Source: Bolinopsis microptera
Taxonomy: Eukaryota; Ctenophora; Tentaculata; Lobata; Bolinopsidae
Assembly: GCF_026151205.1 (NCBI RefSeq)
Contig: NC_087072.1
Coordinates: 12,378,169 to 12,442,168 of the forward strand
Length of the DNA stretch: 64,000 bases
Reading direction: 5' to 3'
Position numbers and translations under genes: made by a program. Shown here in pieces: positions 590-59,169 of the stretch. Under the pieces are notes generated by a model. The model made no database searches and was not told where the DNA came from. It worked only from the letters and a program-made list of their open reading frames with translations. Each line of letters begins with the position of its first letter. Position 1 is the first letter of the stretch.

Positions 590-1013
590 TTTAGGAGTTC
601 TTCGGGAAATTGATTCAACAAACGATTGTAACTCGTAATCAATAGAAATGAAACATAGGCATGTTTCAGTTTACGCAGGGTTATTTTTCTATGAGGTCCA
701 CGTACCCAGACTATGCGATTGGTTTAACTATACATACAAATATTCGCCTCCACGATGAAGTTTACATTTTGTCAATTGATAAATTACATATGCTGGGGCA
801 TAATGATAACTTTACACCCCCCACATGTGTAATGTGTATTGGCTTCACGAGCTCCTTGTTGCGAGTTTCAGGCATCCTGATAAAAATATTTTGTTTTCGG
901 GCCCGCTAAAAATACAGGATATCCACCTGATATCTGATTACTTAAATCGGACCTAGTCTACAATAGATCTACTGTTGTCTACGCTAAGTTTTAAAGATAG
1001 TTTTTAGAAAATC
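1..1013. repeat. Segmental duplication, left copy (pairs with ~2446-3457)
   Basis: About 1 kb, covering the secreted-protein gene and its upstream flank, is repeated at high identity at about 2446-3457. The right border is sharp: both copies share TTTTTAGAAAATC and then diverge, into LINE sequence here and into a different sequence at 3458. Copy A has a short extra segment near 790-805. The left border lies outside the window. Confidence 0.85.
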
Positions 1014-1500
1014 CCGTCCAAACTTGTTTCTTGAGCCTTCGTCAGTGTCCAGGTTTCTGATCCGTAGAGCAGTACTGACTCACAAGCCGCTATGAACGAT
1101 CTAATCTTTAGGCTCTTTGAGAGTTTGGATTTCCAGATATCCTTCAGTCTATGTAGGGCACCCCATGCTTTTCCCTTTCTAACCCTTATCTCCCTATCTG
1201 TGCTCTCAATCCAGGAGCCTAAGTAGATGAAATCATCCACATTTTCTATGGCTTCCCCAGATCGACTTTGGAGGTCGCTAGATCGATCTTCCATATTCAA
1301 TGTCATAACCTTGGTCTTGCCTTCGTTTATGTGAAGTCCCACGCTCGCTGCCGCTGATTCTACTCGGAGCAGGAACTCGTTAGCCTTATCCAAGTCCTCA
1401 GATATAAGTGCTATATCATCTGCAAAGTCCACATCGGTGATGATCTTGGGCCCACTCTTCTGCTTGAACGACCATGATTGGTCCGTTTTTGTTATGAGAG
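1004..1500 (-). mobile_element. LINE reverse transcriptase fragment
   Basis: The minus-strand frame reads through an RT catalytic box, DFADDIALIS (FADD in place of YADD), then YLGSWI, RKGKAWGALHRL and LLYGSETWTLT. This order is typical of the palm and thumb of non-LTR retrotransposon RTs. The frame can be extended upstream of the FADD box to about 1500 and ends at a stop at 1004, exactly where the duplicated segment begins. Only the central RT remains; no endonuclease and no tail were seen. The C-terminal fragment at 39595-39873 could come from the same family. Confidence 0.85.
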
Positions 1501-2445
1501 TTAACAGTTAGGGGCTAGAAACTTAGGGCCAGAAAATAAAAAGGAGAAAGGAAGGTTTGGACGGCCCAAATTGTGGCTATTTTCTGTCCTAAATTTCGGC
1601 TAAGGTGAGTGAGTAACGTTGTGCAATGTAGAATAAAGTGGTCTAAAAATAGATAATGTAGCACCAAATGTAACTTTTGGGCGGCGCCAGCCTTCCTCTC
1701 CAAATAAGTCGAGTGTACACTGACCGAGAGCTTTTTTGTGAAGGTACTTAGTCTCATGAAGATAAGTCAGCTTGCTATCGGAGACAAAGGAACCAAGAGA
1801 GGAGCAAAAATGTTCAATACCTTAGCTAATAATCAATATCGATACATATATTGGATTTTGTTAAAGTCTTGCGGACCAACATGGCGCTACAGTAAGTTGT
1901 AATCCTCCAATAGGATTTAGACCATGCTTAACAGAGATTGATTAATCCCACGCTGAATATTAGGATCCTTGATTATTGTAGCTGGTGCCCAAAATTTCGA
2001 TATAAGATCTACATTTTTGGCATTCCAGAAACTCACAAACTCACCATGCCGTTGGGTGCCCGGTACTGTCCCGGCCCCATGCCATTATCCCGGCCCCATG
2101 CCACTGTTAGTCTGTATTTTTCAATTTTACATTGCTCCTTAAAGGTCAACGAGCACTGATATTGAGCGTTCATATATTTATAAAAAGATGTCTTTCTAAA
2201 TTTCCATGGTTTACTTTAATAGAATTATGTCGAAATATTATAAGTTCAGATTACAGAATCGAAAAAGGATTTGAATTATAAATTTGCTTTGTTTTCACTG
2301 AAAAATATGGCCTTAGTTTATTATCGTATGATTAGGCACAATAACAAGTAAAACTAGAAGCTGAATGCAGTTGATAATAACAAGCAAAATAAATGTTTAT
2401 ATTTAACCAAAAATATTGACATCTCTTCTTTTATTTTCTCTGTCC
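1501..2445. other. Intergenic, no supported gene
   Basis: AT-rich sequence between the LINE fragment and the second secreted-protein gene. Short ORFs occur on both strands (for example 1515-1757 minus) without recognisable domains or splice context. A short direct repeat of CCCGGCCCCATGCCA occurs near 2070-2104. Confidence 0.6.
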
Positions 2446-3042
2446 TTATTGGCAAATGAAGGGCTTGACGGAAGAGGTTCCAGCTTCGTAAGCTATCCTT
2501 GTGACCTTGTGTCTGATAGCATCGGGCATGCAGGCAACAGGTGGGAGGGCTACTTTTGCAACTATCTCCCCCTTCACGGATACCACCAGGAACTTGCCTT
2601 TCAGCTTCATGTCCAGGGTTAGTCCTGGTGGTGTTAGAGTGAACTTGAAGTCCTTGCAGACCGCCCACATCGGATACTCGCTGTCAGGAACTTTAGTGAC
2701 GCAGTCGTTCTCGGTGAAGTCCCCACATCCACCACCATCCGTGTGCATCGCTTCCAATTTCAAAGTAGCTTTTCCATCAGAACTCTCCGGTAGCGCAACC
2801 GAGACCAATAATTCGATGATCGCCAGTTTTACGTTGTAAAGCTTGATTAATCCAAGATCTCGTTCTAAGGTCTGTGTTCCCACTCTATGAGCTAAGGGGT
2901 AATATACCGACTTCTTTTTTCTACCTGCCAGACTATATCCGTACATACGACTCTGTTCTTTCAGTTGAAGACACTGTATCTGTTGTGCCTCAGAACAGTA
3001 CACAAGTACGAGTGTCAAAGCTAGCAACGTGGTTAAGTGCAT
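2446..3042 (-). CDS. Secreted protein of unknown family, copy B (complete)
   Basis: A single-exon frame of 198 residues. I chose the ATG at 3042 (MHLTTLLALTL) because it starts a clean signal peptide, and the 12-residue upstream extension begins with a non-ATG codon. After cleavage near CSEA/QQ the protein has conserved cysteines (IQCLQL, GGGCGDF, NDCVTK, WAVCKDF, ACMPDA, FICQ), probably paired in disulphides. An AATAAA-like signal on the minus strand lies only about 10 bases after the stop. It is the intact paralogue of the gene at 1-589, with an in-frame codon gain or loss between them that suggests both were kept under selection. Family and function are unknown. Confidence 0.75.
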   Translation of the reverse strand: MHLTTLLALTLVLVYCSEAQQIQCLQLKEQSRMYGYSLAGRKKKSVYYPLAHRVGTQTLERDLGLIKLYNVKLAIIELLVSVALPESSDGKATLKLEAMHTDGGGCGDFTENDCVTKVPDSEYPMWAVCKDFKFTLTPPGLTLDMKLKGKFLVVSVKGEIVAKVALPPVACMPDAIRHKVTRIAYEAGTSSVKPFICQ

Positions 3043-3457
3043 TTTGGGAGTTCTTCGGGAAATTGATTCAACAAACAATTGTAACTCGTAATCAATAGAA
3101 ATGAAACATAGGCATGTTTCAGTTTACGCAGGGTTATTTTTCTATGAGGTCCACGTACCCAGTCTATGCGATTGGTTTAACTATACATACAAATATTCGC
3201 CTCCACGATGAAGTTTACATAATATTTTCAATTGATAAATTACAATGATAACTTTACACCCCCCACATGTGTAATGTGTATTGGCTTCACGAGCTCCTTG
3301 TTGCGAGTTTCAGGCATCCTGATAAAAATATTTTGTTTTCGGGCCCGCTAAAAATACAGGATATCCACCTGATATCTGATAACTTAAATCGGACCTAGTC
3401 TACAATAGATCTACTGTTGTCTACGCTAAGTTTTGAAGATAGTTTTTAGAAAATCAT
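2446..3457. repeat. Segmental duplication, right copy
   Basis: Partner of 1-1013, colinear and in the same orientation. The copies share the coding region and about 400 bases upstream, including the stretch with CCCCCCACATGTGTAATG. This copy lacks a short segment present in the left copy near 790-805. Confidence 0.85.
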
Positions 3458-5392: not shown

Positions 5393-8300
5393 AAAAGAAG
5401 TGAGTCTACCGGGAGTCTGGACAGTTATTGTGGAAAGTTTGTGGATGATATCTTACTGCACCTCTCTTTCGAGAAGCAAAAGTCTAAATCGCCTACACTA
5501 GTGGAAGAAAAAAACCTAACTTACACAATAGCGGATGAGAAAAACCTAACCTACACCATAGAACGAAGTTACTCAACAAGCAGTGGTCGAAGTGTGTGTG
5601 TAAAGCTTGTTGATGAAGTGTTTCATCTCAGTACCCTCGAGAAGGAACCTAGTCCAACACCTCTTCCGAGCATATCCAGTAGGAATGTAAGTAATGTGGA
5701 AATATATCAAGTATTTGAAATATGTGTTTCAATTCCGCTTGAAGACGTAAAGAACCACTCATACTCATTCGATGCACACTGTACATTGTACACTATACAC
5801 TGTACATTGTTTGAAACTGCTGTTTTGGCAGGATGTCACCATCAGCAGCGTGTCAAGAGCAAGCGACATGACTGATGACAGTGTAGGTTATTCTAGCATG
5901 AAGGAGGCGCTCTCTTTTCAGAGGCATTAAAAATGAAAAGAGGAACACTCCTTCTCAAAGCATTCAAACTAAATGGAACAGCTTTCCTTTTAAAAGCACA
6001 GTTCTTGCACAGTTTTTTCCATAGTTATAGCTTCATAGTATTACTATTTAAGCTTTTTATTGGTACAGATTACAAAGAAAGTGACTAGAATAGGAGGAAC
6101 TGCTTAATAAGATTATTTTTAGTTCAAGGTTTAAGGGCAAACTTTGGATCTAAGTCTTTGCTTTCAGCCTATAATTGATGATCAATCAAACCGAAAAATC
6201 ACCAACAATATGCTTCTCCTCTGACGATGTTCATTATGAATGATGGGGAGACCTGCCGAATGCCAGCCGACCACTCATTCTGATGACTGTTAGGATAGTT
6301 TAAAAACTCCCCCATGTCCCACTTGGTTTAGACTTTGGTGTGATAATTTGATGATTCTGTTTAATCCAGAGAATGTCAACGTGGACGTCCATTCAACTCA
6401 TGAAGTTGTATCTCGAATTCGGTTGCAATTTGTAGCCTTCGATTTGTCGTTTTACAACGGAATTTTGATAAATATTTCCGATTTAATTTCATCTTCCAAG
6501 TCTCTTAAAAACTGGGCAGAATTTCAACATTTGTCTACCCTACTAATCACAGCATGCGAAGGATGGATAATTCGATCTATTTAATTCTTAATGATAGCCC
6601 GCATGTTAATTTTAATGGTCATGATAATTGTTTTGATTATTTCCTTCAACTACATGGTCCTGCATGATGAAGTGTTTCACGTAAACTACTGAGCTAACTC
6701 GCCTATAAAAATGTACTCTTGCACCAGGCCAACCGAGCATGTAATATATAGAAGATTATACTAAATACTTGTACATAATATTATCTGTATATTGATCGTA
6801 CATAATACGTCAGAGTTCTCTTACAATGTGGGTAACTAGAAATTATAAATCTGTGATTTCTATATTCATAGAATTTTCAGGAAAACCAACGGAAGTCGAT
6901 CTTAGATGTGACCCCTCCTCTAACCCCAGATGAAATGGAAATAGCTGCTATCGCCGCTCAAAGTCGTTCTAGCAGTGGTCTTAGTAACTATTGTGAAAAC
7001 TTTGTGGACAAACTATTGTTCCGTATTTCTATAGAGAAAGAACCGGATGAGTTAGAACATGTTCCAATACCTGTCAGTCGCTCTAAAAGTGGTCTCAGTA
7101 TTTATTGTGACAACTTTGTGGACAAACTTTTACTTCGCATTTCCTTAGAGAAGGATGAAACCCCTCCCCTTACTCCAGATGAGATGGAAGTTGATCCTAT
7201 CGCAGAAAGTTTCAGTCGCTCTAGCAGTGGCCTTAGTAGCTACTGTGGTAAAGTTGTGGACGATCTTTTGCTTCACATTTCTGTAGAGAAGGAATCTGTC
7301 TCACTTGTACCAACAGAAAAAGACCCTGTTGAAGAGTCTGGACCCATCTACACACCTGTTAGCAGCCAGAGCTTCTGCAGCAGCTCTCGTAGCAGCTCTC
7401 GTAGCAGCACTAGCAGCAGCTCTAGCAGCAGCTCTCGTAGCAGTAACATCAGTGGTTTTTGCGACAAATTAGTAGATGATCTGTTGATTCGTATTAGAGT
7501 AGAAAAAGTAAAATCGGTTTCACCAATTCCCATCAAAAGAGAACAAACACCGTATCATAATATGGATAAAACTCTTCCTCTAACCCCGGATGAAATGGAA
7601 ATTCTTCCTATCGCTGCTCAAAGTCGTTCTAGCAGTGGCCTTAGTAACTATTGTGAAAACTTTGTGGACAAACTATTGTTCCGTATTTCTATAGAGAAAG
7701 AATCGGTTTCACCAACTTCTATCAAAAGAGAACAAACACCCCCACTTACCCCAGATGAAATGGAAATAGCTGCTATCGCCGCTCAAAGTCGTTCTAGCAG
7801 TGGCCTTAGTAACTATTGTGAAAACTTTGTGGACAAACTATTGTTCCGTATTTCTATAGAGAAAGAATCGGTTTCACCAACTTCTATAAAAAGAGAACAA
7901 ACACCCCCACTTACCCCAGATGAAATGGAAATAGCTGCTATCGCCGCTCAAAGTCGTTCTAGCAGTGGCCTTAGTAACTATTGTGAAAACTTTGTGGACA
8001 AACTATTGTTCCGTATTTCTATAGAGAAAGAATCGGTTTCACCAACTTCTATAAAAAGAGAACAAACACCTCCACTTACCCCAGATGAAATGGAAATTGC
8101 TCCTATCGCCGCTCAAAGTCGCTGTAGTAGTCGCCTTAGTAACTATTGTGAAACATTTGTCGACGGACTCTTGTTCCGTATCAGTATTGAAAAAAAGCCA
8201 ACACCAATCCTCAGAGAACCATATCCAGATGAAAAGCGAGTTTCTTCAACGGCATCTCCAATTGAGAGTGAACCTACTCCTGCCTCGTTGATAATTGATA

Positions 8301-11300
8301 TACCAGAATCACCGTTGCAAGTATATTTTATATTATGTGCATTTTGCTCATGCATGAAATGTTATGCTGTTATTGGCATGATTTTTGCTTTGTTTGGTTG
8401 CGAAGTACTGTTTTGCATGCGTCATGTCTGGTGATTAACCAGTTGAACATTTACAAAATAATCACCCATTAGCCATTACCCATACGAGAAAGTAAATTTG
8501 AAGTGCCTCACCGCATGTTACCACCTTACAACTACTTCATCGCATGCCCGTTTATAAGAAATATTAATCGAATACTCTTCTTGTTACATTAGAGTAACTT
8601 TACTGTAGCTCTACTAGAGTTGCCGTGTACTCGGTTAATTGTCAGCCGTAAAAAGTGGCATTTTTTCAAAAAATATAGTTGTTTTTACTGAAGTACGTGA
8701 TTTTTCGTTCATAAGGGTGTACAAATAGCGGAGCTCGCATGTATGCATTAATTTTATTTGATGTTTTTCTTGTTAAAGCTGCACGTGGAAATTTCATCAC
8801 AAATCATGCATGTTGCTATATATTTTCCTAGACTTCAGCTTATTTTAATAAAGTTTGATTTCTTCTTATGTGCACTACATATTGCATGAGTCTGTTGAAC
8901 CACAAGCTAATATGTCCCGTACATTCAAATCATCTGCTTTATTACAGATTTATCAACATTAATCTCATGCCAACTAGCATGCTATCAGCCGTTTTTGAGT
9001 TTCCATAACTCATGGTAAAACGACTGACCCCACAAAAAATAGAGAAATATATGATTGCGAAGAAACAAAAACGGCTTTTATCATCAGTGTCTCTTTCTTT
9101 ATTCATAGAACTTTCAGGTTGAGAAACGGAGCTATTCCAGAAGTAGCGGAAAAGATCTCTGCATTAAAATTGTGGACGAAGCTTTTATTCTTAGCACCGT
9201 TGAAAAAGAGAAACCAATCTCAGATAAAACTCCTTGTCTTACTCCGGATGAGTTAGAACATGTTCCAATAGCTGTCAGTCGCTCTAGTAGTGGTGTCAGT
9301 ATTTATTGTGACAACTTTGTGGACAAACTTTTACTTCGCATTTCCTTAGAGAAGGATGAAACCCCTCCCCTTACTCCAGATGAGATGGAAGTTGCTCCTA
9401 TCGCAGAAAGTTTCAGTCGCTCTAGCAGTGGCCTTAGTAGCTACTGTGGTAAAGTTGTGGACGATCTTTTGCTTCACATTTCTGTAGAGAAGGAATCTGT
9501 CTCACCTGTACCAACAGAAAAATACCCTGTTGAAGAGTTTGGACCCATCTACACACCTGTTAGCAGCCAGAGCTTCTGCAGCAGCTCTCGTAGCATCACT
9601 AGCAGCAGCTCTAGCAGCAGCTCTCGTAGCAGTAACATCAGTGGTTTTTGCGACAAATTAGTAGATGATCTGTTAATTCGTATTAGAGTAGAAAAAGTAA
9701 AATCGGTCTCGCCTCCTCCCTCTGAGAAGGACTCATCTCCTGTTGAAAGACTCCCAACTCCCGTGGAAACTGCGAGGCAACATTCCAGCAGGAGCTTGGA
9801 TAGCTATTGTGGCAGGTATGTAGACGATATGCTTGTTCGTATCACTGTGGAGAAATCACCCTCACCGACTGAAGGAGACCAAGCCCCGTCTCCTAGTTCC
9901 AGCAGCCGGAGTAGCACATTGAGTACACCTACAGCAAGTCACCGGAGCAGCTCTTCTAGAAGCTTGGACAGTTTCTGTGGCAAGTTTGTAGATAAACTCC
10001 TGCTTCGCATATCTGTAGACAAAGTACCCAATCAGAGGAGTCTTTCTAGTAGCAGCGGAAAGAGCTTCTGTGTTAATCTTATGGACGGAGTGGTCTTCCA
10101 AAGTACTGCCGAGAAAGAAACTAATCCGAGCTCGCCTGCTGATCTCTCATCTGTCCGCTCGCCTGTCAAAGAAGAATCTTCTTCTTCTTCTTCTCCTTCT
10201 GCTGGAGACCCCTCAACTCCTTATCTTCCTCATACTCCAGCACCAACTCCTACTGAAACTACTGCACAATTGGTCAGTTATTTTAAATACTGGCAGCTGC
10301 AAATTATCCCTGTGACTCCTGTTCATGTCATGCTGTGCTGATTATTGGCATGCGTTATCCGTCACAATGTTGTTGCATGATTCACTTTTACATTTTGGTT
10401 TCAGATGTTTGCATGAATTTTGTTTTGTGTTCGGTGTTTTAGCTTTGGTGATGGTTGCACATTGCATGATGTTATAAATTTTGTTCAACCAAATTTCACA
10501 AAAAATGAATAAGTTGTCATCTGTGTTTTTTTCAAGATATTCAGCCGTTGTATTAAATTGTCCAGCTGACTGCTGTTCTGTAAATCATGCATGCTGATAT
10601 TATGCTGATATTATGCTTTTATTGAATCAACTGATATGACCTTTTAACACACATGTTTATTGGTTGGCAACTATAGTCGACACACGCCTTTGTACTTTGT
10701 AGCAACAGTAATTCAACGTACTTTAACTTTAACTATTTACTGAGAATCGATACCAATTATTCCAGGAAATGTATCACGTCTCACGTCTGTGCTATCATTT
10801 TCAGAAATTCAAAAACCACATTCAATTTTAACTTCTCGCCATCAAACTTTCTTACTAAATTCTTCCGCAGCTTAATCACTAAGATTTCTAAGTAAGTAAG
10901 GATTAGCTAATTCATGATAGTAAAAGTTTCTTTATTCATAGAATTTTCAGGCGAGCTCAAGAAGCTATTCCAGAAGTAGTGGTAAAAGTTACTGTGTCAA
11001 ACTAGTTGATGAAGTGTTTCATCTCAGCACCGTCGAGGCGGCTAAATCAATTACGCCTATACCGATTGAGAGGGAACAGACTCCATATTATGCTGCATCT
11101 CCCAGTCCATCTGTAAAGGAGCCTACACCTGCACCAGCTGAGCCTACTCCCTCGCCCCTAAAGGAGCCTACTCCCTCACCAACTGAGCCTACTCCTTCAC
11201 CAATTACAATTGAGAAGGATCTTGTTCCTCCGATTGAAAAACAATATGTTATCAGAGAATCAGACAGAGATGATACTGCCACAACTAGTTTTGTGTCAGG

Positions 11301-14300
11301 AATTGCACATTCTATTTGCTTGCAGGATCAGTTTGTGGAAGGTGCAGAATCTGATTCAGAATCTTGTGCCAGCTACACTCGCACTCCTGAAATATGGAAA
11401 CTAACTCCGCTTCCTCCAGTTCAATCAGCTAGGTCTCCCACCCCCAGTGTGAAATCAGTTGGAGAGAAATCACCCAGTGAGGGAACATCTCCTCCACCAT
11501 CTACAGTAGTGGTGTCTGCACCTGCTTCACCACGCGAGGCAACAGTTGTCATGTCTAGTAATAGTCCTTCCGAACAACAGGAACCTAGCGATTCTTCTTA
11601 TGTTTCCGCCTCAAGAGATGCAATCGCTTCTCCTGCATCTGACGGTGCTTTAAGTGATGACGAATACCAAGCTTACGCAGAATCTGCTTACTCGGACGAT
11701 TTTGCGAGCGATGATGAAGTACAAAAGTCAAAAACATCATCTCCCTCCCCCCTGTTAGCATCATCTCCCTCCCCCCTGTTCTTTAACCGGACCCCTACAG
11801 TGGTCAGAACCCCCGAAGAAGAGGAAGAAGAATCTAAAAGTCCCGCCCCCTCTCCCCTGTTCATCAAACGGTCTCCCCCAGTAATCAGAACCCCAACAGA
11901 AGAAGAAGCTAAACGAGAGAGGATGGACCGGGAGAAAACCGCACCTGCTGGCCTAGAGCGGGAGGTTCGAGTCTGGCAGCCACTCCCACCTCCCTCACCC
12001 TCACCTTCTCGACTATCTGTAGGAACTCCTGCCAGGCATTCGGCAGGCTCTCTCAAACCTTTGAGCTTGAATAAGCTTAAAGCTGGAATGAACCAATGGA
12101 GAATTCCTCCGAAGAGCTCCAACCGATACCTGGTAATCTCGGGGCCTGGTGTCTGGTGAACGTGAAGCACATTCTCCTGGCCTCTGTGCTTGGGAGACAG
12201 AGACTTATTCCAAGTCGCACCCAAATTTAATCTTCAAAAGCACTTTTTATCCCTTTTCAAATAAAAACAATTGTGATTGTAATTCAGGTGAGACTAATTA
12301 ATTGTACCTTCAGCGGAGGAGAGTTAAAATAGAGCTTGACCCAGAGTCTCCCTATATAATACACCATGTTGATAAGCAGATAGCTGTTCAGGTTGGACTT
12401 TATTTCTATTTCTAACAACCTAGATTTAAGAATAATCAGATGTTGATCTAACAGGATACATTCTTCAATTAAAATTTCAGCTGCACTGTTCTTTAGCTCG
12501 GGTAAATGTTACAGCTAGCGCAAGACGAAATGGACTCAACTAGAAACGAGGACAGATTGCATGATTTCATGAAGTACAAGAGAAAGTTCAACAAAATGAG
12601 CCAGAAAAAGCGGATTGAAGAGTTGAGTGAGCAGGAAGTGCGGAAAACTGAGATAACCAATAGTGTTTACCTCGGAGGGAAAACCAATGTGAGTTATATT
12701 TGTAGTGTTTACCTCGGAGGGAAAACCAATGTGAGTTATATTTGTAGTGTTTATCTCGGAGGGAAAACCAATGTGAGTTATATTTGTTGTGTTTACCTCG
12801 GAGGGAAAACCAATGTGAGTTATATTTGTAATGTTTACCTCGGAGGGAAAACCAATGTGAGTTATATTTGTAATGTTTACCTCGGAGGGAAAACCAATGT
12901 GAGTTATATTTGTTGTGTTTACCTCGGAGGTAAAACCAATGTGAGTTATATTTGTAGTGTTTACCTCGGAGAGAAAACCAATGTGAGTTATATTTGTTGT
13001 GTTTACCTCGGAGGGAAAACCAATGTGAGTTATATTTGTTGTGTTTACCTCGGAAGGAAAACCAATGTGAGTTATATTTGTAGTGTTTACCTCGGAGGGA
13101 AAACCAATGTGAGTTATATTTGTAGTGTTTACCTCGGAGGGAAAACCAATGTGAGTTATATATGCTGTGTTTACCTCGGAGGGAAAACCAATGTGAGTTA
13201 TATTTGTTGTGTTTACCTCGGAGGGAAAACCAATGTGAGTTATATTTGTTGATACCCTGACAATGGATTTTGGGAATTTTATTTCAAACTTAAATGTCAT
13301 GATAGTATCAACTTTGAACAATCAGTCAAGAGATAGCTGGAGATATTAGACATATTTCCTTTTTATCAACAAACTTATTCCTGGATATTTTCAGATGAAC
13401 AACAGACTATTACCCTTACCTTCGCCACCAAGATCGCCTCCCTCAAGTGACTCTGCGCCTTCTCCTGACGAAAAGGAAGGATTCGATTCTGAGAAAGATG
13501 CGGGACTCTTGAAGTATGTTTATTTTACTATTGTTTGTTTATAAATGAAGATATTTGTTATATTTCACACTTTCGTGCGGTGAGATGTTAAGCTAATCCT
13601 GCCTGTTTATATTTTGATTGACATCTTAAATTTTAAAAACGGACATTCTTGCAGGATACTAGATCAAATCAGGAACCTGACGAATGCCAGTATTGGAGAA
13701 ATGAAGACCTACAATGCACCACCACTCGACGTTCATGCTGTAAGTAACAATTTGTAAGGACGCTATCGATCCTGTGGACTGTATAGCGTGGATGCACAAT
13801 TCTAATTTATATTTAGCTTTTTAAAGAGTCCTGCTCATGCTTATCACCCTTCAAAATATGCGTTCTAATCAGCAACTAAAACTTTGTAAAAGGTAAGAGC
13901 TAAAATAGTAAATTAAGGAGGTAGAGGATCCTCGGCCTCGTTTAACAAGGAAACGATCTTCTGGTCCTAGTGTTAACGAGACTATCGCTGAGATTAAAAG
14001 TTATGATATGCCCCCTCAAGAGATTTGTGATGTGAGTTATATGGATTATTAGTGTTTCTTTTATTACAAGACCTTTCTTACACTGATCTGATAGTTGATA
14101 CAGATCTCAACAGATCCCATATAAAAACAGATACCAATAAAAACTTGATACCAATAAAAACTTGAACTAAATGAACTTCAAAAAATCTTTACTCGTTTTG
14201 TTTTCTGGATCAGCAAATTATCTCAACGAACCTGGCGAGGTCATCTCAATATGTTCAATCCTAATTTATTCGTCTTATCTTTACCTTCATTGTTAACTGT

Positions 14301-15689
14301 TTTCATGTTAAATTGGATATATAATATGGATTGTAAATTATAATATGTTTAATGTACATATGAGACAGGAGAAACGCTATCTTAGGACGCTAGGAGGATC
14401 AGGACTGTAACGTCCTTGATAAATGTAATAGATTTGTAGCGTTGTAATTAGTTTAAATTATGAGCATAATGACATCTAAATAATGTTTTCAGGTGGTAAA
14501 GTGTGTGTACACGATTCTTGGTGAGAATCCTAGACGTCTAGATCACTGGCAGGAGGTGAGGAATTTAGTTTGTAGTTTAGTATATCTTTTGGCAGCTAAG
14601 TTAGCTTGTTATTTTGGTGCCCTAACTTTGCTACACGTTGTATACCTCTCGGCCGCCCGATCAAAAGGGGTTGCAGCGTGTGTCAACCCTAACTATCCTT
14701 GACCCAGCAAATGCTAACTTGCATCGTTTCAGTGTGTGGTTTTGTTGAGTAAGCTGGGAAGAAAGCATGTGAGGAAACGAGTACTGAGAATGAGAAAGGA
14801 TAGAGTAACTCCTGAGATGAGAGAGGAGGTCAAGAAACTGTTGGCAGGATGGACCTCCTACGATGTAAGTTATTCTTCCAGGACCAGAGGGTACCCAATT
14901 TTCAATTTAGAGTCCTTCCTACGATGTAAGTTATACTTCCAGGACCAGAGGGTACCCAATTCTCAATTTAGAGTCCTTCCTACGATGTAAGTTATTCTTC
15001 CAGGACCAGAGGGTACCCAATTCTCAATTTAGAGTCCTTCCTACGATGTAAGTTATACTTCCAGGACCAGAGGGTACCCAATTCTCAATTTAGAGTCCTT
15101 CAAAGGGAGTATTATAGGCGCAGGCATTTAGGCGCAGGCATTTATTCGGTTTTGAATAATACTGTTAATCGGTCGTCTGTGCGACTGCAACCAGACTTGT
15201 AATTATTATAGTCTCTTTTCTCCCCCAGATTGCTCAGCGAAGTAGGGTTTGTGTGCTGTTCTTCATCTGGTGTAAAGAAATCTGCGATCTAAACGAAAGT
15301 CCTGAAGACAACCCGCTCCTACCCATTGTCATGGGGCGGTTCATGAACAAACGAAACAACAACTCAGTTATGTCCAAGATCTTCAGTCAAAATCTCGGCA
15401 GTGGCAGGAACTCTACTAACCCCGAAATACTCCCTGGTTAGTTCAACTTTCAACCGTTATCATTCTCAGTATCCTTTTATATGCTTTAAAAAACACGTAT
15501 CTAACAAATATATTCTCTCAGCCCCACCTTTAGCTTCTCCCTCATGATTTTACTCCACTCACAGGCGAAGAGAGTCGTCGGATGGTGATAGCTGCAGCTC
15601 GAGCCTTCAGAATGAACCGGGCTAAGAGACGAAACAATGTTTTACCTTCAGTTTCTCACACTCCCTCAGCCTCACGCACCCCTGCCTAG
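5393..15689 (+). CDS. Large amphipathic-helix repeat protein with C-terminal dynein-stalk-like domain (multi-exon)
   Basis: Exons with matching phases: 5393-5686, 6881-8320, 9118-10272, 10951-12132, 12314-12391, 12515-12688 (or longer), 13395-13513, 13655-13739, optional 13918-14031, 14493-14555, 14733-14864, 15229-15436 and 15565-15689 (TAG). The core set sums to 5055 bases, or 1684 residues. Module A (e.g. YCENFVDKLLFRISIEK) occurs about 14 times and module B (e.g. CVKLVDEVFHLSTVE) 4 times, in the order A B / A8 / B A5 B / B. Linkers are Ser-rich with TPPLTPDEME motifs. A Pro/Ser/Glu-rich acidic region follows. The last exons resemble the dynein heavy-chain stalk region: GEMKTYNAPP, VVKCVYTILG, a Trp, a Lys/Arg helix, then SRVCVLFFIWCKEI. 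The helices recall PKA-RII anchoring helices. Inference: a cytoskeletal or axonemal scaffold. The 5' end is unresolved. Confidence 0.7.
7064..7512 (+). repeat. Exon-to-exon duplication inside the repeat gene (pairs with ~9244-9701)
   Basis: About 450 bases encoding three consecutive A modules and a Ser-rich linker are nearly identical to 9244-9701 in the next large exon. Differences are few (for example VDPIAES against VAPIAES and a shorter serine run), which implies recent duplication or gene conversion between exons. The introns before exons 6881, 9118 and 10951 share an acceptor flank ending ATAGAA(T/C)TTTCAG, so the exons were probably duplicated together with their 3' splice sites. Confidence 0.85.
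7691..8090 (+). repeat. 165-bp coding tandem repeat (55-residue unit)
   Basis: Within exon 6881-8320 a 165-base unit recurs, with AATCGGTTTCACC at 7701, 7866 and 8031. Each unit carries an SVSPTSIKREQTPPLTPDEM linker and one A module. Adjacent units are almost identical at nucleotide level, including synonymous sites, so this part was homogenised recently. Confidence 0.9.
8435..9117. other. Intron of the repeat gene
   Basis: The intron begins at 8321 with GTATAT and ends with a pyrimidine-rich tract and CTTTCAG before 9118. It is AT-rich with repeated CATGC motifs. No other gene or element was recognised. Confidence 0.6.
12662..13249 (+). repeat. 42-bp minisatellite (14 copies) spanning a 5' splice site
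   Basis: Fourteen tandem units of exactly 42 bases. Each starts like AGTGTTTACCTCGGAGGG and continues with AAAACCAAT and GTGAGTTATATTTGT. Every unit contains the exon end AAAACCAAT joined to a GTGAGT donor. The frame stays open through all units (14 residues each, SVYLGGKTNVSYIC with S/C/N variation) and closes with TGA at 13250. Splicing at any unit's donor keeps phase 0 to the acceptor before 13395. Each unit used would add 14 residues. Confidence 0.95.
14857..15101 (+). repeat. 61-bp minisatellite (4 copies) spanning a 5' splice site
   Basis: Four units of 61 bases; GTAAGT donors stand at 14865, 14926, 14987 and 15048. Each donor is preceded by CCTACGAT, which is the end of exon 14733-14864. 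Each unit also contains TTCTTCCAG or TACTTCCAG. Because 61 is not a multiple of three, use of the second or third donor would shift the frame relative to the exon at 15229. Confidence 0.95.
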
Positions 15690-16466: not shown

Positions 16467-19400
16467 TGTCGTGGAAGTAGTCGTCATCTTCAGTTATAGT
16501 ATCAAACTCCTCTACAATCTCCTCTCTACTTAATTTCTCATCTCCATCCTTGTCACCGTCCTCTATCAGCCAAACTGAGGAACACGCGTTGTTAGGTACT
16601 CCTACTTACTAATTCTAACACGCGTTGTTAGGTACTCCTACTTACTAATTCTAACACGCGTTGTTAGGTACTCCTACTTACTAATTCTAACACGCGTTGT
16701 TAGGTACTCCTACTTACTAATTCTAACACGCGTTGTTAGGTACTCCTACTTACTAATTCTAACACGCGTTGTTAGGTACTCCTACTTACTAATTCTAACA
16801 CGCGTTGTTAGGTACTCCTACTTACTAATTCTATCACGCGTTGTTAGGTACTCCTACTTACTAATCCTAACACGCGTTGTTAGGGACTCCTACTTACTAA
16901 TTCTAACACGCGTTGTTAGGTACTCCTACTTACTAATTCTAACACGCGTTGTTAGGTTCTCCTACTTACTAATTCTAACACGCGTTGTTAGGTTCTCCTA
17001 CTTACTAATTCTAACACGCGTTGTTAGGTACTCCTACTTACTAATTCAGTAATTCTAACACGCGTTGTTAGGTTCTCCTACTTACTAATTCTAACACGCG
17101 TTGTTAGGGACTCCTACTTACTAATTCTAACACGCGTTGTTAGGGACTCCTACTTACTAATTCTATCACGCGTTGGTAGGGAATCCTACTTACTAATTCT
17201 AACTTGGTACCAGTGCTTTGTTCTGTCACTGAAGAGTATACACATATGGTTCTACAGTGGCCCCCTAATTGCTGGGTCCTAAATTATTAGTATCACAAAT
17301 GTTTCAGAGTCCCTACCATATACGTACCAGATTCACGGTGATCGATGGCGATGTGTCCTTTAAAACACTCGTCGCTCTCTTCGTAGGACAAGAAGCCATC
17401 CCTATTCTTATCACAAGCGTTGAACATACGCTGAGTAAAGATTATATTTAAGGTCTCGTCGAAGTTTGAGTGATCAGGACTTACATGTAAATTTATTGAC
17501 GACCATCGTTCTGAAGTTTAACAAATATTCTTTAGTAATTAACGAAGATAAATCAAAATAAAAGATCCTCAAAGTATCAACTCACATCAGCTGTCCTATA
17601 TTCTAGAGGGAGCAGTTCATTAATGGTCACGTGTTTGTTGTAGTACTTCCTGAACTCGTTGATGTTGTATCTGTTGTCGTGGTCCTCGTCCAGCTTACGG
17701 AATCTCTCGCCTGAAGCCAGCTGGTGAACCTCTTCAAAGTCCTCTGGATACGAGAATACCACAAACTCTTCCCAACTCAGAGACCCGTCCTGGGGGAAAA
17801 ATAACATTTAAACCTGTTATCTTGGAGGAATGGAATTCACTGGCTAGAATTCATCATTGACAACATAGTTCAGCCTTATCAATATTTTACTAATGAAACA
17901 TAAAATTGTTGATAGATATGGGTTTAGAGATTATGTTTGGAGCAAACTAACCATTATTCCCAGCTAGAGACGATTAAGACATGTTATTTTAAAAGCTACT
18001 GAATCATTATTTAAAATATTAAAACATTATTATGTAAATGTAAACTAACCTCATTAACATCAACCACTTTGAATATTTTGTAAAGTCTGCTAATAATTCC
18101 AGCCAAGCTAGGAGAACCATTCTCTTCCAAAACAGGGTGGTCATGCTCCAACAGAGGATAGTTCAGTTTGTTGTCCTCCAGTAAGAACTCTTTCTTAAAG
18201 TCCATGGCGGAGATATCATCCAGTCCTCCGTAGAGCCCAAACTCTTGGAACGTCATCTGAGAGTCTTGGTTCTCATCCCAGTCCTGAAGTTGTTATGAAC
18301 ATTAAATAGTGAATGTGGAGTATTTTTGAGAATTTTTGAGAGTTTTTGAATCTGAGAATTTGACCATTTTCGCCGGGAATACTCAATAATGTCTCAAAAA
18401 TTATTTTTTAATCTGAGAAATTCAGCATGGATTTCTCATTTTCTCAAAAATTGTCCACTCAAAAATATTGATATACTAAATTATTCTTCATGTTTTCTTG
18501 TATCATATCAGTGCAATGTGGTCCAAAAATACTCAAAATCAATTTTTGAGAATGAGTTTTTCGCCTCTCCTGGAAACATTTCTCAAAAATAATGAGAATT
18601 TGGCATTTTCGTCGGGACTCTCAAAAATACTCATGACCCCCCCCCCCCCCCCCCCCCCCCCCCCCTATTTAAGCCAGCTAGCACCGACAGAAATTGAACT
18701 TTGTTTCAGCTGGGTAATTTATAACAACAGTGCACCATGATTAGTTTACATTTTCTTGATAAGTTTACAGTTTGCAAATACAACATAGGTGACATAATAT
18801 AATAGGTAGGTGACAAGAAACTCGAGCTGGAATTTAAAGACTGCCCCTGACTTTCATATGAATAATTCCCTCAGTATACACTGTCAATTGTTCTGGCGCT
18901 CATTTCGTACGCTAACGTCCTGTTAGATTATAAATGTACTAGTACTTGCAGGTACCACCCGTATTCACACTCAGACCTGAGTTTAGTCATTTTCCGATAC
19001 GAGATTGGGGATGGGTTCTATAAACAAACAAACAACAAACAGTACTAAAAAAAAAACACTGTAACTTACCCAGAAATCTGCTTTAATCTCTGCAGCCTTA
19101 TTTTCCAGTTCATTCTGGTGGAGCCAGAGTGCAAGCTCTCTTCTATCCAGCAAATTATCTGCATCTAAGTCAGCTTTATAAAATACCTGGGAAAGATTCA
19201 TCACTACACATTAGCACATTATGTCACTATTCACTAATCACTATGTTATTTGTGAACAAAACCATTAATTAACATTCATAGTTTATTCTTTATTCTCAGT
19301 TCTGTGTTTCTCAACTGAAAAGTAAAACTCTCAGAAAAGCGAACAGGTTACCAACCTTGTCAACAACCACTTTTAAAGCTTCCTTTCCAAAATTGTTATC

Positions 19401-48961: not shown

Positions 48962-49542
48962 ATGTTTAAGAAATCTTCACTCACTCTCAGAACAGTTGTT
49001 GTTGGTTTGGAGACAGTTGGAAAGTCGAGCATGATCTTCACATACCACAGAAAGGAATTTCCTGCAGATGACGATGCCTATAATGGCTTTGATAGGGGTG
49101 GGATCCTGCACACTGTGAATCAAATGGAAAACCTGTTGGCTTAACTATTGTGGACACTGTTACAGGTGAGGATTTTGATCGATTACGGCCATTATCATAC
49201 CCTGGAGCAAATGTCTTTATCATTCTTTTCGTTGTTTCTGGGACTGTCGAGGCTTTTGAGATGGTGCAAAATCACTGGGCGCCTGAGTTGAGATTTCATT
49301 GTTCTAGAATCCCAACTATCTTGGTCGCTTCTAAGATCGACCTCAGAGGACAGGAATTGTGCACAATATCACCAGAAGAAGGGAAATCAATGGCAACTGA
49401 TATCGGTGCAGCAGGCTATATGGAAATCTCCTCCAAGGAAGTGGTAGGACTAATTGAACTGTTTGAGCTGGTATGCAAAATTGGGGCTCAACACCAGAAA
49501 AACACCAGAAGTAAAACAAGGAAAAAGTGTTTTATTTTGTAA
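48962..49542 (+). pseudogene. Divergent Rho-family GTPase pseudogene with a frameshift
   Basis: The frame from 48962 gives a P-loop-like GLETVGKSS and then a damaged switch I region; it stops at 49142-49144. The continuing similarity (GKPVGLTIVDT, then [30 protein letters not shown] and the CFIL CAAX end at 49542) lies in another frame. The shift falls at about 49090-49120. Switch II reads DTVTGED in place of DTAGQED, so Gln61 is absent, and Gly12 is Glu. It is intronless, unlike the gene just upstream. It was probably a functional divergent GTPase once. Confidence 0.8.
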
Positions 49543-49579
49543 TGCTGCTTAGTGGACTTATAATTTGTAAAGGTTGTAG

Positions 49580-49920
49580 ATTCCTCTACAGGGCCGTCGA
49601 ATAGTTCGACCGCCCTTGTTTACAATACAGTACAATGTAGATGTTCTGATGGAGTATCCTAAGATTCTTGATCTCTTTGGCACAGGCACCCCTCCTCATT
49701 TAGCCTTCAATCAAGTTTCCTATCATTCGGCTGCCTTGACCGAGGAGATTGCATAGATCCAATGAATCCTTAGCTACTCCCTACATTGAGTGACACTGGG
49801 ATTAATCCCTGGACCCTTTACACAGCTACTCCCTACACTGAGTGACACTGGGATTAAACCCTGGACCCTCTACACATAAGGTGGAAGCTCTAACCACTAG
49901 CCACTAGGTCACCCAGCCAT
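49580..49920 (-). mobile_element. tRNA-derived SINE, copy 2
   Basis: On the minus strand from 49920: an A-box-like TAGTGGTTAGAGC and a B-box-like GGGTTTAATCCC, the latter within a 60-70-base unit that is duplicated in tandem (GTGTCACTCA...GTAGGGAGTAGCT occurs twice). The body matches the SINE at 33741-34106. Confidence 0.75.
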
Positions 49921-49984
49921 GGTTAATTCTTCCATCTGTCACGAAAACGGTCAGTGTTATATTCCATGTGGTTCAAGTTCAACA

Positions 49985-50310
49985 AATATGTTGTTTTGGC
50001 AAGTGTTATAAATCCAAATTTCACTGTTTTTTCTACATTTTTCTTGAATAACCAATTAGTGAATTCACTGTGGATAATCCAAGACAGGATTGAGGTACTG
50101 AAAGCTAGATTACCCAAGAGAGCTTTGATAAACGGAAAATTCGCAGAATAGGAGGAGAAATTTTGGAAGATTTATAAATATAAGCTTTTCTGCCGTTTCC
50201 TTGACCAACATTTCACAGTTTTGGCTGAATTTTTGACCAATGACCAATAAGTGGGGTCAGTATGAGTGACACAAGTCACGATCGAGGTACTGGAAGCTGA
50301 ATATCCGGAG
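49985..50310. repeat. Dispersed repeat, second locus
   Basis: Permuted partner of 20826-21190: CAAATTTCACTGTTTT, TTGAGGTACTGAAAGCTAG and TTTTGGAAGAT come first, then AAGCTTTTCTGCCGTTTCC and GAGGTACTGGAAGCTGA. Confidence 0.7.
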
Positions 50311-50547
50311 CCCAATTTTCATACAGGAAACACAGGATACATTCGAATTTTAAGTTAGATAAGTTTACAATATAATAATGAAACGCAGATTAAATTTAAA
50401 CGAATAGTCAAAATGTATCACTACAGCAATGTATTTTAAATGAGATTTCAATTTCCAAATAAAAATATTAATTCTAAAATTAAACTTCATACTGTTAATT
50501 ACAGCCGAACTGCACTACAATAATCCAAGAGTTTCAAACGTAAAAGA

Positions 50548-51684
50548 TTAGCATTTACCGTCTGTTTCAGTGTTCCAGACTGCTTCACCGTTGTCTTTGT
50601 AGAGGACAAGGTTTCCATCATCCTGCATGACCAGGTTCTTACCTCCGCTGTTGTAGGAGTTAGCTGACCAAGGTCCACCGTCGTAGTACAGAACAAGGTT
50701 CTGATCTCCCTGGAAATACAGACCATCCTGTACTCCTTTGTCCATGGTATCAGAATTCCAAATAGCGCTTCCACCATCACAGTAGATGACCAGGTTGCTA
50801 TCAGTTTGCATGACGAGACGATACTTCCTGTTGTTTGAGTACAATGTCTCCCCTATCTTCAGAGCAACGAAAGTGCTAGATCCTCCAAAGCAAGTGTTTC
50901 CGCTGCAGCAGCCTGAAGCAGTGTTACATCCTTGGCTGACACTGCTGTCTCCCTCACATGCTGCTCCACCATTTGCTGGGGCTGGGTTAGAACAGCTTCT
51001 CGAACTCGCCTGGGTTCCTGCTCCACATGTATTTGAGCACTCTGACCAGTCTCCGAAGTCGGTCCATCCACCGTTAACTGGACACCCCTGTGTGTTACAT
51101 TCTTGGCTTTCGTTATCGTCTCCCAAACATTCTTGTCCACCATTTGCTGGGGCTGGGTTAGAACAGCTTCTTGATCTTGTCTGGGATCCAGTTCCACATT
51201 CAGCTGAGCACTCTGACCAGTCTCCAAAGTCTGTCCATCCACCGTTAACTGGACATCCCTGTGTGTTACATTCTTGGCTTTCGTTATCGTCTCCCAAACA
51301 TTCTTCTCCACCATTTGCTGGGGTAGGGTTAGAACAGCTTCTTGATCTTGTCTGGGATCCAGTTCCACATTCAGCTGAGCACTCTGTCCAGTTTCCAAAG
51401 TCTGTCCATCCACCATCAACAGAAGGTTCGGCACAACTGTGCTCACACGCCTTCAGCTTCTTCTCGATCTTCTTACATCCCTTCGTTTCCTTCTTTGACA
51501 TCTTAAGACTTCCTTCCGCTGATTTGCAGTTATCAAGTGCAGATTTGAATCCTTTTTCGAGGCAAGCATCAAACTTCTTTAAAGTTGCTGGCATCTTCTT
51601 TTGAGAGATCTTGCATCCTCCCTTCTTACCACCATGAACGGTCAGGATAAGAAGAGCTACGAAACAGATAGACTTAATCATCAT
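50548..51684 (-). CDS. Secreted protein with three TSP type-1 repeats and a bulb-type (mannose-binding) lectin domain
   Basis: A single-exon frame of 378 residues from ATG 51684. Residues 1-18 are a signal peptide. Residues 19-88 form a Lys/Cys-rich segment. Three TSP1 repeats of 57 residues follow (about 91-147, 148-204, 205-259), each with W-x-x-W/C-S motifs (WTDFGNWTEC, CGTGSQTRSRSC). The C-terminal ~110 residues are a B-lectin beta-prism with three intact mannose-site motifs of the Q-x-D-x-N-x-V-x-Y type: QTDSNLVIY, QGDQNLVLY, QDDGNLVLY. Repeats 1 and 2 are nearly identical at DNA level (171-base period), so they are recent. Inference: an extracellular mucus, matrix or innate-recognition protein binding mannose glycans. 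It lies inside the GTPase cluster but is unrelated to it. Confidence 0.92.
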   Translation of the reverse strand: MMIKSICFVALLILTVHGGKKGGCKISQKKMPATLKKFDACLEKGFKSALDNCKSAEGSLKMSKKETKGCKKIEKKLKACEHSCAEPSVDGGWTDFGNWTECSAECGTGSQTRSRSCSNPTPANGGEECLGDDNESQECNTQGCPVNGGWTDFGDWSECSAECGTGSQTRSRSCSNPAPANGGQECLGDDNESQECNTQGCPVNGGWTDFGDWSECSNTCGAGTQASSRSCSNPAPANGGAACEGDSSVSQGCNTASGCCSGNTCFGGSSTFVALKIGETLYSNNRKYRLVMQTDSNLVIYCDGGSAIWNSDTMDKGVQDGLYFQGDQNLVLYYDGGPWSANSYNSGGKNLVMQDDGNLVLYKDNGEAVWNTETDGKC

Positions 51685-51689
51685 GAGAA

Positions 51690-52590
51690 ACTAACTTGAG
51701 TTGAGGTACGATGGGAAATGAAGGAATGGTGGGTGGAGATGGTAGGAGCTCTCAACATGAAGTGATGTGCTTTTCAACTGATGACGCTTTTGCTCATGAG
51801 CTTAGAAAGTTGTTTCGTCGTGAGCTCAGTGAGTTGCTTTAACCACAACATATCATAGAGTAATGCTGTAGAGGTTCTATAACATAGAACTGAAGGTAAT
51901 TTCAACATGGGTAGATGTGGATTGTGTGTTTGCTAATTAAATTGGTTCGGCTGAGCCTAGCTCACGTTCACAATCTTTTGACGTATGAGACATGTCAATC
52001 GTTAGCCATAATTCAGCTAAAAACCTGCTCTCCTATAGTGTACCAGTGAGAGTTAGTTCTGATAGCAGCACAACAGCTCAATATCCACACTTGACAAAGC
52101 TACAGATCTCATCACGAAGTAATGTCGGCTCTCTTCGTATCTGTCTACTAATTTATGTGACTGTCTAACAGCGCCCATCCAATAATTTTTATTAAATTTA
52201 ATCCCGTTATATTCCAGACATTTGCAACCATTCCGCTTAATCTGGACTGGTGGACTGCGAACTGTGAATTGTCAAGCCACCTGGGTAGATAGGAAAGGGA
52301 CTAGAAGTTTGGAATTGTATTTATCTACTTGGAAATACCTCAAAATAATAGTCCTGTATGATGTGATCCGATCTGTCCAGTTTTTGCATTCGAGCCAGAT
52401 CTGTATTGGAATGTGTGCGTGCCAGGCCTGTTTATTATATTCAATAGACCATCGTCGAAACAGTAAGCGGTTCGATAAGCATTTTTCATTATAATTTCGC
52501 TAGTTTAAATCACAGAAGGTCTGAAACAAAACTTCCATATAGGAGTGCTACAAGAATACAAACTGTAATTCAATTGAACAACTGATGTTT
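51690..52590. other. Intergenic, upstream of the TSP1-lectin gene and the next GTPase
   Basis: Probably holds the minus-strand promoter of the lectin gene and the plus-strand promoter of the GTPase at 52631. No coding region was recognised; the ORF at 52222-52494 has no domain. Confidence 0.5.
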
Positions 52591-52630
52591 TGTGAAATGG
52601 TATTCCTTATTTGAGCCGACCAATGACAGA

Positions 52631-53239
52631 ATGACAGATAAAAATGAGTCAATACCTCTGAAAGCAGTTATTGTTGGATACGATGGAGTCGGCAAAACAA
52701 GTCTTATTTTAACCTATCTAAAAGGGCAGTTCCCTTCAGATGAAGTGTACATACCACTTGTTACTGACGCGGCCACTCTTCATCACTGTGGGCACAAGGG
52801 AAGGCAGATCAGTCTCAGCATTTGGGACACAGGAAGTGGTATTGATTATACCGAGCACAGACATCAGAGTTACAAACACGCACACCTTTGTATGCTCCTG
52901 TTTGACGTTTTATGCGATTCAGATATCAGATTCGAACTCACAGTTTCCCAGTGGTTAAAAGACATTCGTCTGTTTTCAAATGATGTTCCGATTATATTTG
53001 TTGCTACCCGAGCTGATTTGAGAGAGTGTTCAGAGCAGGTAGGGATCAAGGTCCTGACTTCAGAACAGTGCTCAGATATGGCTCTGAAACACGGAGCTGT
53101 AAAGTACATGGAGGTATCAGCCCTGAGGAACGAGGGTGTGGCAGAACTGTTTAGTGAGGTGATTAGGATTGGGTACAAGTTTAGTCGTTCCAGGAATCAG
53201 ACTAGTTTTCAGAGATTGCTAAGTAGTGTGAGAAGGTAA
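52631..53239 (+). CDS. Divergent Rho-like GTPase, type D, without CAAX box
   Basis: 202 residues, intronless. I chose ATG 52631 because the upstream in-frame extension starts with GTG. The P-loop is GYDGVGKT (Asp at the Gly12 position). Switch I has YIPLVTD, with Leu in place of Thr35. Switch II is DTGSGIDY, without Gln61. The G4 motif is TRAD in place of TKxD, and G5 is VSAL. The C-terminus is basic but ends SSVRR with no cysteine, so it cannot be prenylated in the usual way. Loss of Thr35 would weaken classical effector and Mg2+ contacts, so the protein may bind nucleotide unusually or not at all. AATAAA lies about 110 bases after the stop. The paralogue at 56219 is truncated. Confidence 0.85.
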   Translation: MTDKNESIPLKAVIVGYDGVGKTSLILTYLKGQFPSDEVYIPLVTDAATLHHCGHKGRQISLSIWDTGSGIDYTEHRHQSYKHAHLCMLLFDVLCDSDIRFELTVSQWLKDIRLFSNDVPIIFVATRADLRECSEQVGIKVLTSEQCSDMALKHGAVKYMEVSALRNEGVAELFSEVIRIGYKFSRSRNQTSFQRLLSSVRR

Positions 53240-53494
53240 CGTTTTTAATGCTGTTTCTATTTATTTTGTTATCGTCAATGCGTGTTATTGGGTGTGGACG
53301 ATGTCGTGGGTGTGTCCTGTCTCGTTAAGTGCTTCAATGAAATTTATAAATAAAGCTGTTTAGTTAATTCAATTTCCGTTCTTCTTTGAAATTGCTATGC
53401 ATAGCGATCACCTACCAGACTATTTTTGAAATGTTTTGTTTCTCAGATTAATTAATATATTTGTACTAAACTAACAAGGAAACTTTTGCAGAAG

Positions 53495-54091
53495 ATGGCA
53501 ACGGGTAATGACATAGACATAAAATGTGTAGTTGTTGGAAATGATGGAGCAGGGAAAACATGTGCATTGATTACTCTTACTACTGACTTCCAATTAGACT
53601 GGGGACCTGAACTGTACGTTCCTTATGGGTTCCTTATAATGCATAATTTTAAGAAGAGGGGAGAGTTAGATAATACACCTTTATGTGTTGAATTCTGGGA
53701 CACTAAAGGACTTGAAGAGTACAGTCGACTACGTCCCTTAGGCTATCCCGGTTCTCATGTGTTTCTTTTGTTTTTCGATATCACCGATAGTAGAGAGAGT
53801 TTTGAGGAAATGTTTTCCTTTTGGTGGTCAGAAATCCGACGGTTTAGCTCCGACGTTCCTATCATTCTTGTCGGATCAAAAATAGACTTGAGATACAATG
53901 GTCTTGCTACTATTTCAACTGTTGAAGGTGAGGCAATGGCTAAGAAGATTGGAGCTGCAAAATACATGGAAATATCCTCTTTACTGGATAAAGGTTTGAC
54001 TGAGTTGTTCGAAGAAGTTGCCAGTATTGGTTATCATTACAAGAGGAAGAAGACAGTGAGGAAGACGAAAACTAAATGTAACGTTTTGTAA
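53495..54091 (+). CDS. Divergent Rho-like GTPase, type E, copy 1
   Basis: 198 residues, intronless in the coding part, from ATG 53495 (MATGNDIDIKCVVVG). The bases before it, CTTTTGCAG, look like a splice acceptor, so a 5' UTR intron is possible. The P-loop is GNDGAGKT (Asp at Gly12). Switch II is DTKGLEEY, where Leu replaces Gln61. G4 is SKID and the C-terminus is polybasic with CAAX CNVL, so membrane targeting is kept. Switch I differs from the sister copies by a 9-base insertion (YVPYGFLIMHNF against YVPTVMHDF) and loses Thr35. Predicted to be hydrolysis-poor. AATAAA near 54384. It is part of a duplicated block with the type D gene upstream. Confidence 0.88.
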   Translation: MATGNDIDIKCVVVGNDGAGKTCALITLTTDFQLDWGPELYVPYGFLIMHNFKKRGELDNTPLCVEFWDTKGLEEYSRLRPLGYPGSHVFLLFFDITDSRESFEEMFSFWWSEIRRFSSDVPIILVGSKIDLRYNGLATISTVEGEAMAKKIGAAKYMEISSLLDKGLTELFEEVASIGYHYKRKKTVRKTKTKCNVL

Positions 54092-56215: not shown

Positions 56216-56218
56216 ATG

Positions 56219-56674: not shown

Positions 56675-56947
56675 CGTTTTTAATGCTGTTTCTATTTATT
56701 TTGTTATCGTTAATGCGTGTTATTGGGTGTGCACGATGTCGTGGGTGTGTCCTGTCTCGCTAAGTGCTTCAATGAAATTTATAAATAAGGCTGTTCAGTT
56801 AATTCAATTTTTTTAGTTAATTCAATTTCCGTTCTTCTTTGAAATTGCTATGCATAGCGATCACCTACCAGACTAATTTTGAAATGTTTTGTTTCTCAGA
56901 TTGAATAATATATTTGTACTTAACTAACAAGGAAACTTTTGCAGAAG

Positions 56948-59166: not shown

Positions 59167-59169
59167 TGT

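Follow-up and report, generated by a model that had tools for sequence, protein, structure and literature searches.

A ctenophore gene that may combine a dynein-type microtubule-binding domain with an array of 18 putative docking helices

We analyzed a 64,000-nt stretch of the Bolinopsis microptera genome (contig NC_087072.1, positions 12,378,169 to 12,442,168; hereafter, the window) in which exons carrying repeated sequence modules are followed, on the same strand, by exons for a dynein-like domain. Positions refer to the window unless a contig label (C1, C2, C4, C6 or C11) is given. Glutamate receptors of the genome are in keeping with a ctenophore: the ligand-binding region of the receptor at C6:9547809 matched PDB chains labeled ML032222a (Mnemiopsis leidyi) at 200 bits, ahead of 4zdm (Pleurobrachia) at 111 bits and glutamate receptor 2 at 64 bits, and another receptor gave the same top two; a search for COX1 as a phylum marker had no match. 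Sequence comparison provides solid grounds for regarding the spliced C terminus as homologous to dynein’s microtubule-binding domain (MTBD); the homology runs from where the first coiled-coil strand (CC1) ends to the last helix. We propose, with a probability of roughly 0.36, that the gene encodes a non-motor ctenophore scaffold that joins this MTBD grip to 18 docking helices, most likely on ciliary microtubules. At the C terminus, the MTBD would attach the protein to microtubules, with cilia as the most likely site; it would lack both the AAA ring and the second coiled-coil strand (CC2), which in dynein switches its affinity. The region N-terminal to it would be a flexible Ser/Pro chain bearing 18 short amphipathic helices, each docking a dimeric four-helix-bundle partner of the dimerization/docking (D/D) type, that is, PKA-RI, a SPA17/CABYR-like protein or a Dpy-30 protein, and the gene product would concentrate many such dimers along a microtubule. 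We infer that array and domain share one transcript, that the domain binds microtubules, that the modules form helices in the full protein and bind D/D domains and that the location is ciliary.

The assignment of the C terminus draws on a dynein profile built from 11 of the 16 PF12777 matches in the same genome. Against this profile, the spliced window domain scored 36.4 bits and eight relatives from other loci scored 16.5 to 42.4 bits, while the best of 1,800 shuffles of these nine domains reached 7.3 bits. A preliminary description of the window had called the C terminus dynein-stalk-like; the profile similarity bears this out for the MTBD, which is the stalk head, and not for the whole stalk. 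Alignment using hhalign gave 93.0% for the window domain alone and 98.3% over 110 columns for the family, both without a control run. A single-sequence search of the PDB with the window domain returned four weak matches (E 0.03–0.07), all of them dynein heavy chains aligned at the same place. A family profile was built from seven of the nine members, leaving aside the C1:5541 frame, which is short, and C4d, which nearly duplicates C4c. At E ≤ 1, it matched 72 different sequences in the PDB, with a best E of 1.3e-10. Assigned by name and length, 59 of the 60 best among these 72 were dynein heavy chains or dynein MTBD constructs, the exception among the 60 being 6jbx (E 0.1); a 4,583-residue chain named RSPH9 was taken as a labeling slip. 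The best matches span the whole MTBD and several weaker ones only the first 40 residues. As had been described before, an AAA ATPase domain appears to be absent: no AAA family exceeded the Pfam cut-off in the window exons scanned, exons elsewhere lying outside the scope of the scan, and the domain gave only a chance-level match to AAA_24 (12.4 bits, well under the cut-off of 27; E 0.14). CC2 was not seen, the dynein profile aligning over the MTBD only.

Microtubule binding by the window domain is plausible on the basis of these similarities. A rather unlikely alternative is that the fold is a relic that has lost tubulin binding and now works as an unspecialized helical domain for protein–protein interaction or dimerization. 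Several observations would fit such a relic: the domain shares little identity with dynein; even at E ≤ 1, PF12777 fails to match the window sequence, a threshold at which five of the seven family-profile members are matched, the window not among them; and CC2 is unseen in window and relatives alike. The absent Pfam call also weighs against a microtubule grip, as does a His at what is presumably the place of dynein Lys3298. Against a relic, the MTBD is covered by the family profile, which also matches structures of MTBDs on their own, for example 6kio, and helix HVRKRVLRMRKD of the window has a strongly basic character. Pfam alone would have misled us about this C terminus, and it was the dynein profile from the same genome that settled the matter. 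In dynein, K3298, K3299, R3342, K3336 and R3382 are the residues named for microtubule contacts in PMC6125590.

Searching the genome with the window domain revealed eight further loci with the domain, all outside the PF12777 match set. Four on C4 (C4a to C4d) share 31–33% identity with the window domain over 113–123 residues; the others are C1:1797496, C1:5541121, C11:10938313 and C2:18607361, the last found at E 2 only. Searches from C4 and C11 members recovered most relatives, with C2 appearing at E 0.27 from a C4 query and absent with the C11 query. The C2 locus was assigned on the basis of 42.4 bits to the dynein profile and 24.1 bits to PF12777 (cut-off 24); it may be a piece of a true dynein. 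At five of the eight loci (C4a, C4c, C4d, C1:1797 and C11), the domain’s open frame contains one strong transmembrane segment; none was found in the frames at C4b, C1:5541 and C2. In all eight cases the frame stops soon after the last MTBD helix with no CC2 seen, although a frame end could equal a splice site. Pfam searches of six of the eight relatives’ frames (C4b and C4c excluded) detected no AAA domain at E ≤ 1, distant motor exons not being included. The C4 relatives lie together at C4:11921896–11943196 as four tandem frames in which an MTBD-like domain ends a long charged helix; three of the frames carry one transmembrane segment, in two cases with a preceding Cys-rich part. A possible further MTBD-like frame was noted at C1:16883338–16883538 (minus strand; E 7e-4 with a C4 query). 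In addition, C1:12846001–12849777, which lies some 0.46 Mb away from the gene in the window, holds an inverted, partial copy of that gene’s 3′ part that begins at window position 13519 and reaches the edge of the examined piece. With 0 exon substitutions, 5 in 1,539 intron positions and three one-base exon insertions over the stretch compared with the gene, it is either a recent broken copy or an assembly artifact.

The dynein MTBD is not known to occur outside dynein motors, and a literature search by title, abstract start and passages, with most subscription papers and bioRxiv preprints outside its scope, found neither a motor-less dynein MTBD protein nor an anchor array this long. A broader and, at this point, doubtful proposal is that ctenophores evolved a family of motor-less dynein MTBDs acting as fixed grips, several anchored in membranes through one transmembrane helix and one equipped with an 18-fold docking array, that link membranes and D/D proteins to the microtubules of comb-plate cilia. 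An example site would be the compartmenting lamellae that tie neighboring giant comb-plate cilia together. PMC11184263 describes two comb-plate proteins, specific to ctenophores, of the compartmenting lamella joining neighboring cilia. This structure would make sense as a place for membrane-linked MTBDs. A stand-alone MTBD in an early-branching animal, membrane-linked in five of nine loci, would indicate that evolution can part the grip from the engine and would offer cell biology MTBDs that naturally lack the switch, and the array would represent an extreme case of repeated helix docking. The family of motor-less stalk heads appears more novel than the combination of array and dynein tip that was first noted.

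The array itself comprises 18 module cores of 17 residues each within 5393–12132, spread over four exons. Taking the first codon of the core as the position and sorting the modules into types ourselves, we located 14 A modules (5426, 6989, 7103, 7241, 7457, 7649, 7814, 7979, 8144, 9304, 9442, 9646, 9805 and 9973) and four B modules (5594, 9157, 10066 and 10990), all on the plus strand, in line with the earlier count of about 14 A and four B modules in Ser/Pro linkers. The first exon (5393–5686, 98 aa; TCAG 5′, GTAAGT 3′) contains one module of each type, and the second (6881–8320, 480 aa) contains eight A modules in Ser/Pro linkers that partly form 165-bp tandem units. The third (9118–10272, 385 aa) has a B module, five A modules and another B module, in that order, and the fourth (10951–12132, 394 aa; donor GTAATC) carries the final B module and continues into a Ser/Pro/acidic region. 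All are open frames with AG/GT flanks, and a search for transmembrane segments in these four exons found none. The 480-aa exon gave a Pfam match to SMP_C2CD2L (E 8.6e-08, 32.6 bits, above the cut-off of 26) and, below the cut-off, matches to Phage_tail_terminator_2 (9.5e-05) and Hormone_recep (6.2e-04); being partial, mutually unrelated and located on repeat units, all three were set aside.

Sequence identity among the copies indicates that some are recent. Tandem Repeats Finder reported a 165-bp unit at 7583–8181 with 3.6 copies and 95% matches, and the cores at 7103, 7241 and 7457 reappear at 9304, 9442 and 9646 with differences of 0 or 1 base. There are 9 distinct DNA sequences among the 14 A modules, all four B modules are distinct, and both types together yield 12 distinct protein cores. 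The proportions of synonymous (pS) and nonsynonymous (pN) differences were 0.74 and 0.21 among the 9 distinct A sequences and 0.80 and 0.23 among the four B modules, which indicates purifying selection on the module cores; with synonymous sites saturated, the value of pN/pS itself cannot be relied on, although its direction is unambiguous and the pattern far from chance. Cys at core position 2 and Asp at position 7 are invariant in all 12 distinct cores, positions 5, 6, 9 and 10 are always hydrophobic (with a single Tyr at 5) and positions 11 and 15 are mostly so.

Docking of these modules to D/D domains is a fair guess, and their resemblance to PKA anchor helices is modest. Modeled in isolation by AlphaFold2, with nine other modules as the alignment, one module formed a single helix over residues 8–30, with a mean predicted local distance difference test (pLDDT) score of 73.4 overall and 92 over residues 11–20. 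In the best ungapped alignments to the anchor peptide Ht31, whose sequence was taken from PDB 2drn, 11 of the 12 distinct cores adopted a single register, which places [F/L/I/V/Y]-[V/M]-D of the module on Ile-Val-Asp (FVD on IVD), and six of the 12 beat shuffles at p < 0.05. As the modules are related to one another, these per-core comparisons are not independent. A relaxed RII motif admitting Cys, Tyr and Met, which matched 12 of 12 cores and 2.0% of shuffles, was written after the modules had been seen.

Other results count against docking helices. The strict RII motif matched none of the 12 cores; the corresponding comparison with D-AKAP2 reached p < 0.05 for one of 12; and the hydrophobic moment at 100 degrees was weak, with two of 12 cores at p ≤ 0.05 against shuffles. 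A profile search of the PDB with the modules retrieved no anchor peptide, only a ribosomal protein at E 0.72. An AlphaFold2 model of the whole 480-aa exon, computed from two sequences, had a pLDDT of 28 and contained a few strands, some of them at modules; we count this model as uninformative, yet it gives the helix no support. The helices described previously are backed by the isolated-module model and not by the whole-exon model, and their likeness to PKA-RII-binding helices extends to the shared Ht31 register and not to the strict motif. A serious contender, to which we give somewhat less than even odds, is that the modules, lying between Ser-rich stretches, are helices that self-associate, short strands or motifs recognized by some other partner. 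The invariant Cys 2 and the mostly hydrophobic positions 11 and 15, which fall outside the RII motif, would suit this possibility, as would the very-low-confidence strands, whereas the helical isolated-module model and the register agreement in 11 of 12 cores speak for D/D ligands. According to PMC8339350, anchors are amphipathic helices of 14–18 residues with a hydrophobic pattern.

Candidate D/D partners appear to be encoded in the genome. There are two RIIa-family matches, which we read by a loop rule for telling family members apart (given in PMC8339350): one, with PEDI, has the Pxx[LIV] loop of a SPA17/CABYR-like protein, and the other, with PDNP, the PxxP loop of PKA-RI. Two cyclic-nucleotide-binding matches lie 11–15 kb from the PKA-RI-like match on the same strand. 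Dpy-30 matches number six, at five places. No PKA-RII was found among the RIIa-family matches, an absence that means little in a genome search of this kind.

Joining the modules to the MTBD in a single transcript is likely, judging from splice sites and phase. Between the array and the domain, two probable exons were placed on the plus strand: 12314–12391 (RRRVKIELDPESPYIIHHVDKQIAVQ), which was read by eye with its start and end strings located and has the weak donor GTTGGA, and 12515–12688 (LAQDEMDSTRNED...), whose 3′ end and 5′ splice site begin a 42-bp array with 14 GTGAGT. They are followed by exon 13395–13513 (MNNRLLPLPSPPRSPP...DAGLLK; TCAG and GTATGT flanks), which has an ATG at its start. 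The domain proper is encoded, also on the plus strand, by 13655–13739 (CC1 end and EMKTYNAPP turn), 14493–14555 (VVKCVYTILGENPRRLDHWQE), 14733–14864 (basic helices, CVVLLSKLGRKHVRKRVLRMRKD...) and 15229–15436 (last helix, SRVCVLFFIWCKEIC, and tail), of which the first three have AG/GT flanks and were aligned by both the dynein profile and hhalign, and the last was aligned by hhalign, its end (donor GTTAGT) being read by eye. A splice-site join leads to the final exon (15565–15689, plus strand), ending ...SASRTPA with the stop at 15689. Flanks of the AG/GT type are present at the exons of 13395–14864, and the join 13395–13513/13655–13739/14493–14555/14733–14864/15229 onward reads in frame. A possible in-frame cassette exon at 13918–14031 (plus strand) would supply a second copy of the turn (AEIKSYDMPP, of the EIKSYxxPP type); it is weak, with an acceptor lacking a pyrimidine tract.

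Alternatively, two neighboring genes could be present, a Ser/Pro-rich array protein ending at 12157–12159 and a short MTBD-like gene starting at ~12.3–13.4 kb. We consider this unlikely, even though a number of features count in its favor and against a single transcript. The frame of the last array exon stops at 12157–12159, 27 bases beyond its proposed donor; the donor itself (GTAATC) departs from a strong consensus; the two bridging exons have weak sites; exon 13395–13513 opens with ATG; and the very similar inverted copy on C1 holds MTBD exons without the array. Conversely, array and MTBD exons lie on the same strand; 10951–12132, 12314–12391, 12515–12688 and 13395–13513 each start in phase 0 with no stop across the joins; TCAG stands immediately 5′ of the ATG exon, as at an internal exon; and in six of the eight relatives, likewise, a longer frame ends with the domain. 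The long gene that we favor may extend further upstream, where three candidate exons on the same strand, about 3.4–4.6 kb before the window start, share the motif [LM][DN]W[SN]ANI[DE]; they had no Pfam match at E ≤ 1.

The closest known system is the dynein heavy chain, whose MTBD (the stalk head, within PF12777) is homologous to the window domain from the CC1 end to the last helix. In contrast to dynein, the window gene has no AAA ring or CC2 that we could see, and the domain is C-terminal and joined to a helix array or, in five relatives, to a transmembrane segment. With A-kinase anchoring proteins and RSP3-type D/D anchors, the modules share short helices that are possibly amphipathic and pair hydrophobic residues at a spacing of four, and the Ht31 sequence IVDxVI resembles the module core FVDxLL. 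Known anchors have one or a few such helices rather than 18, and the modules, putative D/D ligands, differ in their invariant Cys and in failing the strict motif. A third comparison concerns microtubule-binding membrane proteins of the single-pass kind, CLIMP-63 being an example. Like the C4 relatives, CLIMP-63 combines a transmembrane segment, a long charged helix and a microtubule-binding end; here, the binding end is a dynein-type MTBD, and the array exons of the window lack a transmembrane segment.

Two tandem arrays in the window start at exon ends and multiply a 5′ splice site: 12661–13249 (42 bp × 14, 14 GTGAGT) and 14856–15101 (61 bp × 4, 4 GTAAGT). Because the exon’s reading frame stays open through the 42-bp unit, splicing from a later donor would lengthen the product by in-frame repeats. 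A third array lies just downstream at 16581–17203 (36 bp, 17 copies), with 17 GTRAGT words on the minus strand. Elsewhere in the window, a pair of closely similar frames of 225 aa, each with a stretch resembling a signal peptide, occupy 1–670, where the frame starts 4 bases before the window, and 2449–3123, both on the minus strand; the copy scanned had no Pfam match. Between them, 1007–1507 (minus strand) holds a reverse-transcriptase-like frame (PF00078, 27.5 bits, below the cut-off). Read by eye, an open frame at 50548–51690 (minus strand) contains three thrombospondin-type repeats and a bulb-lectin-like end, and several small-GTPase-like open frames of Rho/Rac type stand in a row at 49096–63344 (plus strand).

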